Shown: positions 55,624-58,275 of the stretch, piece by piece
How the letters are laid out: the number at the start of each line of letters is the position of its first letter
Numbering within the stretch: the first letter of the stretch is position 1
Assembly: GCA_029564595.1 (NCBI GenBank)
Contig: JAKQPS010000044.1
Location: 1 to 64,000 of the forward strand
Origin: a bacterium
Lineage (GTDB): Bacteria > UBP15 > UBA6099
Direction of reading: 5' to 3'
Length of the DNA stretch: 64,000 nucleotides
Made by a program: the position numbers and the translations under genes
Notes under the pieces: model-generated
Seen by the model: the letters and a program-made list of their open reading frames with translations, nothing else
Databases searched by the model: none
Told to the model about the DNA's origin: nothing

Positions 55624-56733
55624 TTAGAACAGAGTCAGGTCGTCCCTGTGAATCACGTCGTCGGATATCTTGTGTCCGAGTAAATTAATAATATCGGACG
55701 ATTGTCGTCCCATGATTTTTTTAATTTCCTCAGAGGAATAACTGACCAGTCCTTTTGCGAAGCACATGCCGGACTCGCCGCAGACCTGAACGCAGGCTCC
55801 CCGGTCGAATTTTTTCTTTACGGCAACAATGCCGCTCGGAAGCAAGCTTTTGCCTTTCTTCTGAATCATCTCCCGCGCGCCTTCGTTCACAACAATTCTG
55901 CCTTCGGGCAGACATCCGATCAGCCACTTCTTGCGCGCCGAAAGAGGGGTGGGTTGAGGCACGAAGGTAGTGCCGATTTTCTCGCCGTCTATCACTCGCG
56001 ACATTACCGATGGAGTCGAGCCGTCCGCGATAACCATCTTTATGCCTGAGTCCATGCACATCTGGGCTGCTTCAAGCTTTGTGGCCATGCCGCCGGAGCC
56101 TCCTGAGCGCGGCCCGCGCGCTTTCAGGAAGAGTTCTTCAGTTATTTCCGTCACTGTTTCCAGCAGGCGCGCGTCCTCGCACACCGCAGGGTCGTCGCTG
56201 CAAAGCCCGCTGACGTCTGAAAGGTTTATCAGCAGGTCGGCGTCCACTAGTATCGCCGTCATCGCCGCCAGCCGGTCGTTGTCTCCAAACTTAATCTCCT
56301 CTATGGCGACAGTGTCGTTTTCATTGACAATCGGCAAAGCTCTAAGGGCCAGCAGCGCCCTCAGCGTGTTGCGCGCGTTGAGGTATTTCCGCCTGTCGTT
56401 TATCACGTCGGGAGTCAGAAGCGCCTGCGCGGCCACTATGCCGTGAGCCGAAAACAGCTCGCTGTATCTGGCTATGAGCATGCCCTGCCCGACCGCCGCC
56501 GCCGCCTGTTTCTGATTGATGCTTATCTTTGCCGGGTCCAGATTCAGCATCGGCGCGCCCGTCCTTATGGCTCCTGATGACACCACGACGATGTCCAGCC
56601 CGCGCTCATGCAGTCTGGCCGTCTCCTTCACGAAATCCCTCATGTGGGAGCCGTCTATCCTGCCGTCCGGGCCGGTGAGCGTGCGGCTGCCGATCTTTAT
56701 CACTACTCGCTTCGGTTTTTTAATTTTCGACAT
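55624..56733 (-). CDS. proB: Glutamate 5-kinase ProB (with PUA domain)
   Basis: It phosphorylates glutamate in the first, feedback-inhibited step of proline synthesis. The 369-residue protein has an amino acid kinase domain (VVIKIGSRTLTGPDGRID, IVVVSSGAIRTGAPML, NENDTVAIEEIKFGDNDRLA, GSGGMATKLEAAQMCMDSGI). The C-terminal PUA domain starts near 275 (GRIVVNEGAREMIQKKGKSL). The ATG at 56733 overlaps the obgE stop by 14 bases, so the genes are translationally linked. Confidence 0.96.
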   Translation of the reverse strand: MSKIKKPKRVVIKIGSRTLTGPDGRIDGSHMRDFVKETARLHERGLDIVVVSSGAIRTGAPMLNLDPAKISINQKQAAAAVGQGMLIARYSELFSAHGIVAAQALLTPDVINDRRKYLNARNTLRALLALRALPIVNENDTVAIEEIKFGDNDRLAAMTAILVDADLLINLSDVSGLCSDDPAVCEDARLLETVTEITEELFLKARGPRSGGSGGMATKLEAAQMCMDSGIKMVIADGSTPSVMSRVIDGEKIGTTFVPQPTPLSARKKWLIGCLPEGRIVVNEGAREMIQKKGKSLLPSGIVAVKKKFDRGACVQVCGESGMCFAKGLVSYSSEEIKKIMGRQSSDIINLLGHKISDDVIHRDDLTLF

Positions 56734-57694
56734 CTTCAGTCAGTCCTAAAGATTGCGATATCGCGGCTCTCAGGTCTTCAAGCCCTTCTCCCCGCGCCGC
56801 GTCTATTTCGATGTCCCGAGCCGCGCCTTTGAGAGCGCTTTCCGCGTCTCGCCTGTTATACACCACAAGCCGTTTCTTTTCCAGATACTCAGGGTCGTAA
56901 GCGGCAAGCTCTCGCAGCAGCGTTTCCACCTGAGCTTCCGGTTCCGGCGCTCCGGGGCGGGAATCTATCAACAACACGATTAGCTCCACTCTTCGCAGAT
57001 GCCGCAGAAAGAAGTTGCCCACTCCGCGCCCTTCGGACGAGCCGTCGGCTAGCGCTGGCATGTCCAGCATTCTGAAGCTCGCGAACTCCCCTGCGCCGCA
57101 AACGCCTATGTACGGTTTCCTCGTCGTGAAGTCATATTCGCCGACGGGAGTTCGGGAGCCTGTGAGAGCGCGGACGAGAGTGGATTTTCCCGCTCCCGGA
57201 AAACCAATGACGGCCGTTTCGGAGGGTATGCTGTATTCAAGAGAAAGCGCGCGCTCCTCGCTTTCGCCGCCCGGCTCGAATTCGAGCGGAACCCGGTTTT
57301 TGGGAGTCGCGAAATGCATATTGCCTCTGCCGCCGGAGCCGCCGGCGGAGACTATGATTTTGTCGCCGTTAGCAGCAAGGTCGGCCAAAAGTTCGCCTGT
57401 CTCGGCGTCCATAACCGAAGTTCCGGCCGGAACGCGAACGACAAGGTCGGCGCCCGCGCGTCCGTATTTTCCCGATTTTCCGCCGGCCCCTCCGGAGGGC
57501 GCGCGAAAAATAGTTCCGGGTTTGATGTCTCTGAGGGAATTGACTTTGTCGTGGGCCGCTATGATCACGTGACCGCCGCGCCCGCCGTCTCCGCCGTCCG
57601 GGCCGCCGCGCGGCACATATTTCTCTCTTCTGAAACTTGCGCTGCCGTCGCCGCCGCGACCGCCGCGCGCCCTGATGCTTACAGTGTCCCGCAT
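56720..57694 (-). CDS. obgE: Obg/CgtA family GTPase with altered G motifs
   Basis: Obg is a ribosome-biogenesis and stress GTPase acting on the 50S subunit. The N-terminal glycine-rich Obg fold is well conserved (ARGGRGGDGSASFRREKYVP then RGGPDGGDGGRGGHVIIAA). The G domain departs from the family. G1 is GFPGAGKS (164-171) instead of GxPNAGKS. G3 is DMPA (211-214) instead of DxPG. G4 is NRRD (280-283) instead of NKxD. The switch region DFTTRKPYIGV is kept. At 324 residues it has no C-terminal extension. The frame is intact, so these are substitutions, not a frameshift. It heads obgE-proB and follows the short fliN by 49 bp. Confidence 0.92.
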   Translation of the reverse strand: MRDTVSIRARGGRGGDGSASFRREKYVPRGGPDGGDGGRGGHVIIAAHDKVNSLRDIKPGTIFRAPSGGAGGKSGKYGRAGADLVVRVPAGTSVMDAETGELLADLAANGDKIIVSAGGSGGRGNMHFATPKNRVPLEFEPGGESEERALSLEYSIPSETAVIGFPGAGKSTLVRALTGSRTPVGEYDFTTRKPYIGVCGAGEFASFRMLDMPALADGSSEGRGVGNFFLRHLRRVELIVLLIDSRPGAPEPEAQVETLLRELAAYDPEYLEKKRLVVYNRRDAESALKGAARDIEIDAARGEGLEDLRAAISQSLGLTEDVEN

Positions 57695-57743: not shown

Positions 57744-58037
57744 TCACGCGCCGATCTTGCGCCCTTCGCTCAACGCCTGCTTCACAGCTTCGGGGATGGA
57801 GCCGACTATGTCCGTGACACGCAACGCGTACTTGCCGTCTATCACCATCACTTCGCCGCGCGCGACGAGTTTCTTGTTCACGAGAAAATCGATCCTGTCG
57901 CCTGTCGACGTGTCCAACTCGATCACCGTCCCCGGCTTCATCTCGAGTATCTCTTTAAACAGCTTCTTCGTCCGCCCCAGCTCCACGCTGACGGTCATAT
58001 CGACATCTCTTATCAGTTCCAGATCTTTCTCCGACAC
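57744..58037 (-). CDS. Second, short FliN-like SpoA-domain protein
   Basis: The start is GTG at 58037, with GGAGG 7 nt upstream. This gives 97 residues: a short N-terminal helix followed by a complete SpoA domain (IRDVDMTVSVELGRTKKLFK, EMKPGTVIELDTSTGDRIDF, VNKKLVARGEVMVIDGKYAL with RVTDIVG). This is the classic size of FliN. A longer frame to 58154 would include the ribosome site and is rejected. It lies just upstream of obgE, away from the flagellar operons, while a 334-residue FliN/FliY is encoded at 32068-33072. The two may share the C ring or work in different states. Confidence 0.85.
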   Translation of the reverse strand: MSEKDLELIRDVDMTVSVELGRTKKLFKEILEMKPGTVIELDTSTGDRIDFLVNKKLVARGEVMVIDGKYALRVTDIVGSIPEAVKQALSEGRKIGA

Positions 58038-58275
58038 GAAACTACCTCCGTCTTCAGCTTCATATCGCTTCGGATAGCTGTCAACGGAATTAACACTACC
58101 ACATTTATAAAGGCAACGCAAGCGCCCCGGTTCATTCAGCGCGCCTGCGACCACCGCCGGTTGACCCGTTTCGACTCCCTGCTTTCATCCAAGACTTTTT
58201 TTGTTTACACTTAATAATATTCTGCGGTCCGGCTTTGCGGTTGCCGCGCCGCCGTTGCCCGAAAGGTTTTCTCTA

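Follow-up and report, generated by a model that had tools for sequence, protein, structure and literature searches.

The obg/cgtA gene of a UBP15 bacterium raises the question of how the sole Obg of a genome, a factor of 50S ribosome assembly, uses GTP when its G motifs depart from the family pattern. The window, meaning the whole 64,000-nucleotide stretch of DNA that we analyzed, is a section of contig C57 in an assembly of 4.40 Mb that is 97% complete; its phylum, UBP15, is entered as 'Candidatus Lagoxiota' with 6 genomes in a taxonomy review (PMC11382960). From the window alone, the original prediction had singled out changes in the G1, G3 and G4 motifs of an otherwise intact Obg, and had proposed altered GTP turnover or nucleotide choice on that basis. 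The three motifs are present exactly as it described them (GFPGAGKS, DMPA and NRRD), in an intact open reading frame (Table 1).

Judged by its domains, its curated-model score and its retained catalytic residues, the window protein is an Obg. The Obg domain profile PF01018 matches it at 1.3e-50 (171.5 bits; cut-off 27), PF01926 matches it at 2.5e-18, and the whole-protein Obg/CgtA model TIGR02729 gives 309.1 bits, above its equivalog cut-off of 280.25. The homologs in two further UBP15 genomes, G005 and G006, also exceed this cut-off (357.9 and 341.3 bits); the half-protein of G004 scores 139.5 bits, below it, because a contig end cuts the gene. As regards its docking domain, the protein reads as a working Obg-like factor, and by a residue otherwise invariant in our comparison it is a variant within the family. 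We use the word 'variant' because the near-invariant G3 glycine is missing, although the curated models do not require that glycine. The gene order obg-proB-proA-smpB, with gene identities assigned by eye, is found in G003, G004 and G005, and the gene downstream of obg differs in G006.

Table 1. Features of the obg locus, numbered along the window
Feature	Position	Strand	Remarks
proB (glutamate 5-kinase)	55624..56733	minus	TIGR01027 410 bits; downstream of obg, overlapping its end by 14 bases
obg/cgtA	56720..57694	minus	ATG start, 324 aa, uninterrupted ORF; sole Obg of the genome
G domain	56741..57238	minus	residues 153-318; remodeled phylum-wide
G5 region DAA	56795..56803	minus	residues 298-300; S-A-x elsewhere
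G4 NRRD	56846..56857	minus	residues 280-283; Lys to Arg at residue 281
G3 DMPA	57053..57064	minus	residues 211-214; Gly to Ala at residue 214
G2/switch I FTT	57122..57130	minus	residues 189-191; unchanged, FTT in 7/7 UBP15
G1/P-loop GFPGAGKS	57182..57205	minus	residues 164-171; Asn to Gly at residue 167
N-terminal glycine-rich Obg domain	57239..57694	minus	residues 1-152; normally conserved; PF01018 spans residues 3-154
FliN-type C-ring protein	57744..58154	minus	upstream of obg; PF01052 84.1 bits; TIGR02480 84.1 vs cut-off 84.05

A PF01018 search recovered exactly one match per genome in all seven UBP15 genomes, three of which are at least 90% complete, and thus revealed no second, canonical Obg. 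Decay, for which the original prediction had also left room, was not found either: pairwise dN/dS over codons 1-322 lies between 0.12 and 0.15 (six pairs among the four members of the window genus), a level that points to purifying selection and not to decay, and the same six pairs give 0.14-0.21 for the G domain alone and 0.00-0.13 for the N domain. The DMPA and NR motifs recur in three more assemblies of the genus (G001-G003), and because all four assemblies carry the same G3 and G4 motifs, a sequencing error in a single one is unlikely. More generally, gene decay, assembly error or contamination is a highly improbable source of the changes. The window assembly is admittedly fragmented, at 203 contigs, and the G004 gene is split over two contigs, but the frame is uninterrupted in the other six genomes and is broken in the seventh by contig ends, and the shared motifs, the low dN/dS, the synteny with proB and the monophyly of the UBP15 Obg proteins with their phylum relatives all argue against such an origin.

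Residue frequencies were taken against 165 other Obg proteins, which are mostly the better-scoring matches in a ranking on similarity to the window protein and do not form a random sample; six of them are named records (L035-L040) that possibly duplicate genomes in the set, and some genomes share a family. Left out of the counts were an Obg with a broken frame (L121), a partial one (L126), duplicate loci of the phylum genomes, the N half of the G004 protein (L042), which lacks the G motifs, and two members of other GTPase families (L045 and L046). The excluded L121 comes from an unrelated genome (G022), where the match covers residues 3-223, the remainder is unaligned and the obg frame is apparently broken. 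Separately, 18 of 290 genomes, nearly all of them at least 90% complete, yielded no Obg-like match to the window protein at 1e-30; some of these may lack Obg, or may hold a divergent or split one.

Against this set, the three predicted changes proved unequal. The G3 change is the strong one: the last position of DxPG is Gly in all 165 other Obg proteins and Ala in all seven UBP15 members (five with DMPA, two with DLPA), so that the Gly-to-Ala substitution is both phylum-wide, bearing out the expectation of a clade-wide pattern, and unique in the comparison. The changes in G1 and G4 weigh less than had been claimed. At the G1 position, Asn occurs in 158 of the 165 and Ser in the other seven, with Gly in six of the seven UBP15 proteins and Asn in G006. 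The change in the window is real, but the family consensus GxPNAGKS from which it was called is too strict, as B. subtilis Obg itself reads GFPSVGKS, and because the position already varies in this way its loss is less telling. The G1 Asn (GxxNxGKS) is a mark of the K+-activated, TEES-type GTPases; it is absent from those six UBP15 proteins and kept in G006.

The G4 Lys, present in all 165 others, is replaced by Arg throughout the window genus (four members) and by Glu in G006, and is retained in G004 and G005, so that the N/T/S-K-x-D pattern gives way to NRRD in the window genus and to NEKQ in G006, and stands as NKTD/NKID in G004/G005. The Asn and Asp of this motif are kept in six of the seven UBP15 proteins; the loss of both Lys and Asp is confined to G006. 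Two further departures had gone unmentioned in the original prediction. The G5 Ser, found in 164 of the 165, gives way to Asp or Asn in all four members of the genus and to Asn in G006, making a fourth change, with Ser retained in G004 and G005; and the segment between G4 and G5 is short in the window genus. In an open frame, the Obg of G006 (L237:4502-5542) carries NEKQ at the NKxD site and NPA at the SA-x site. All seven UBP15 members keep the P-loop Lys and Ser (GKS), the switch I Thr (FTT) and the Asp of G3.

The divergence is concentrated in the G domain. The other Obg proteins define 32 columns of at least 95% conservation in each domain; one or more UBP15 members depart from them at 12 such columns in the G domain (residues 153-324) and at 2 in the N domain (Fisher p 0.005). 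By mean G-domain identity to the others, every full-length UBP15 member and the G004 fragment take the lowest place (rank 0 of 165), while the N-domain identity ranks 9-16 of 165 from the bottom. In separate trees UBP15 is monophyletic for both domains, with support of 0.944 and a stem of 0.25 for the N domain and support of 0.958 and a stem of 0.47 for the G domain. The branches of the N domain are somewhat long too: among 40 sampled tips the largest outgroup distance in the tree is 1.82, and the window protein reaches 2.21. Because of this N-domain divergence part of the signal comes from a generally fast lineage. The sequence itself, its single copy, its clade-wide distribution, the purifying selection on it and the site of its changes are direct observations.

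A genome-wide quirk of all GTPases was rejected, as the other P-loop GTPases of the window genome are canonical wherever a simple motif scan was readable. The scan returned DTAG/NKSD for MnmE, DTVG/NKTD for HflX, DTAG/NKID for HydF, DTPG for a YlqF-type protein, DLPG for FeoB, DTAG for the second domain of Der, and DTPG/NKID for a protein that we take to be IF-2; it had no usable ORF for two loci (L224 and L233) and can miss variant spellings, such as the first G3 of Der. We also dropped a candidate 'Era with lost glycine' in the same genome (L220), which family scans place among the TGS-domain Obg-like GTPases, with DTPP at G3. In this TGS-domain group (L220, L227 and L229 among its members), all 16 sequences, drawn from several lineages, have Pro, Ala or Ser where the G3 glycine would stand. 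YchF is another Obg-superfamily protein of the phylum without the G3 glycine: of the six UBP15 copies (among them the loci L223, L228 and L231 of G000, the window genome, and of G005 and G006), five read DFAP and the sixth has a gap, and outside UBP15 the glycine is present in 21 of 24, mostly as DIAG. Among the scanned ORFs of the seven UBP15 genomes no Era was found, the listed TIGR00436 matches being Der-, MnmE-, HydF- or HflX-like or other known GTPases, and the YsxC/EngB model TIGR03598 scored above its cut-off in none of the seven. RelA/SpoT-type enzymes are encoded in all of them.

The N domain of E. coli ObgE docks at the peptidyl-transferase center of the 50S subunit as a tRNA mimic, and the protein binds 50S more tightly with GTP, GMPPNP or ppGpp (PMC4028186); its intrinsic GTP hydrolysis is very slow (PMC4028186, PMC6982127). 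One mutant study reports no measurable nucleotide binding for ObgE G166V, N283I and D286Y (PMC6982127), of which we place G166V in G1 and the other two in G4. Among other GTPases, the H-Ras G60A mutant reportedly remains in state 1, with a drastic reduction in intrinsic GTPase activity (PMC4867591), and MnmE and FeoB use the G1 Asn to contact K+ (PMC3466195).

Set against this background, the reading that we prefer, at about even odds (roughly 0.5), is that the protein is the single working Obg/CgtA 50S-assembly factor of UBP15, which would still bind nucleotide and whose GTP switch appears altered, probably slower or blunted. For its binding, hydrolysis, switching and ribosome release we infer the following course. 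The G domain would have been remodeled on the UBP15 stem, the Obg domain that docks on the ribosome would have kept its normal form, and the protein most likely docks on the late pre-50S particle through that N domain. Nucleotide binding is most likely preserved, a prediction made likelier because the window protein keeps the P-loop Lys and Ser, the switch I Thr, the G3 Asp, and the G4 Asn and Asp. The Gly-to-Ala change in switch II would make hydrolysis slower and weaken the conformational change that GTP drives, and with a blunted switch release would be slow or nucleotide-independent, making Obg more a placeholder than a switch. Loss of the G1 Asn would remove any potassium contact and leave hydrolysis independent of K+; loss of the G4 Lys in the genus, or of most of NKxD in G006, would loosen the grip on guanine.

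The two halves of the functional proposal are not equally strong. Fixed across the phylum in a sole Obg and absent from 165 others, the G3 change is stronger than the original prediction could tell from the window, and the functional claim is plausible. The absence of a switch glycine, in every sampled relative, from the single copy of a ribosome-assembly GTPase that does not normally vary suggests unusual GTP use. Altered GTP turnover can fairly be drawn by analogy with mutants such as Ras G60A. Altered nucleotide choice is a weak proposition for the window protein and a stronger one for G006 with its NEKQ. The Ras Lys117Arg substitution reportedly speeds nucleotide exchange. A Drosophila study notes K117R as a gain-of-function change in disease (PMC10627255).

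Several points nevertheless tell against the preferred reading. The gamma phosphate is contacted through a backbone NH, which alanine retains, and with that contact kept hydrolysis could be nearly normal; because ObgE is very slow anyway, a further loss of hydrolysis might change little. NRRD keeps its Asn and Asp, and Arg is a mild change. A G3 without glycine is likely tolerable, given that the TGS-domain branch does without it throughout. A rival account is tolerated drift, in which an ordinary but fast-evolving GTPase would compensate for Ala, Gly and Arg within its G domain and keep turnover and guanine choice near normal; we regard it as possible at somewhat worse than even odds. It fits the conservative nature of the changes, the retention of the G4 Asn and Asp in six of seven members, the purifying selection, the joint change of residues 154, 210, 214, 219 and 225, which could be compensation, and the longer branch of the N domain. 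It is harder to square with a G3 glycine that no other Obg in the comparison has lost, with a UBP15 G domain more divergent than any other in the comparison, and with G006, which also lacks the G4 Lys and Asp.

A bolder possibility, which we consider unlikely, is that throughout the phylum the Obg used to build 50S subunits has an effectively disabled GTP switch, state-1-like through the G3 Ala, that the family of G006 also gave up guanine recognition, and that the GTPase control of ribosome assembly was rebuilt as a whole. The last element would be suggested by the failure to find Era and YsxC and by the YchF proteins without a G3 glycine. More improbable again is a pseudo-GTPase, under which the phylum's Obg would be losing its nucleotide-dependent function and becoming a nucleotide-independent scaffold acting through the Obg domain, with G006 as the end state. 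NEKQ and NPA in G006 point in this direction, as do the G4 mutants N283I and D286Y of ObgE with their reported lack of measurable binding (PMC6982127). The conservation of GKS, FTT and the G3 Asp in all seven proteins would be unexpected if nothing were bound, though, G004 and G005 retain NKTD/NKID and the G5 Ser, and G006 is one incomplete assembly (78% complete).

UBP15 is a natural lineage that lives with the G3 Gly-to-Ala change in its sole Obg, and so provides a ready-made test of whether the essential job of Obg requires GTP hydrolysis or binding alone. If the switch is indeed disabled, the essential role of Obg in this phylum would need no GTP cycle, and docking on the pre-50S particle would be its essential act; a ppGpp-sensor role would be absent or different in UBP15, despite the RelA/SpoT-type enzymes of all seven genomes. 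What is new here is the phylum-wide G3 variant, the Obg family itself being well known; among the papers searched, none gave an account of an Obg with an altered DxPG glycine in candidate phyla, and the name 'Lagoxiota' came up in one, a result that does not prove absence from print.

H-Ras G60A shares a Gly-to-Ala change at the last position of DxxG (an equivalence by motif, from our own alignment), but it was made in the laboratory as one substitution in a signaling GTPase of eukaryotes, and its effect may not carry over to Obg. The TGS-domain Obg-superfamily GTPase encoded in the same genome as the window protein (the L220 type) has an Obg-like G domain and likewise lacks the G3 glycine; it differs in having a TGS domain (PF02824) and no Obg domain, and in retaining the G1 Asn. 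YchF/Ola1 is a member of the Obg superfamily as well, and its UBP15 copies also lack the G3 glycine, but its C-terminal domain (PF06071) is different from Obg. The best PDB sequence matches of the window protein are 1udx, 1lnz and 5m04, and the best fold matches of its predicted structure are 1udx, 7o9k_G and 5m04, at a full-length rmsd of 9-17 Å, because of which the fold search supports the overall fold only and says nothing about the switch. The prediction, made from a thin alignment of 10 rows, has a mean pLDDT of 67, with most of the G domain at 70-91, a block near residues 181-190 at 57, the G4-G5 loop at 44 and much of the Obg domain poor (31-42 in places). Relative to characterized Obg/CgtA proteins (B. 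subtilis, 1lnz; T. thermophilus, 1udx; E. coli ObgE, 5m04), the window protein has no C-terminal extension and differs by Gly to Ala in G3, Asn to Gly in G1, Lys to Arg in G4 and Ser to Asp in G5, and it shares with them the domain order, the Obg domain, the P-loop Lys and Ser, the FTT of switch I and the Asp of G3.
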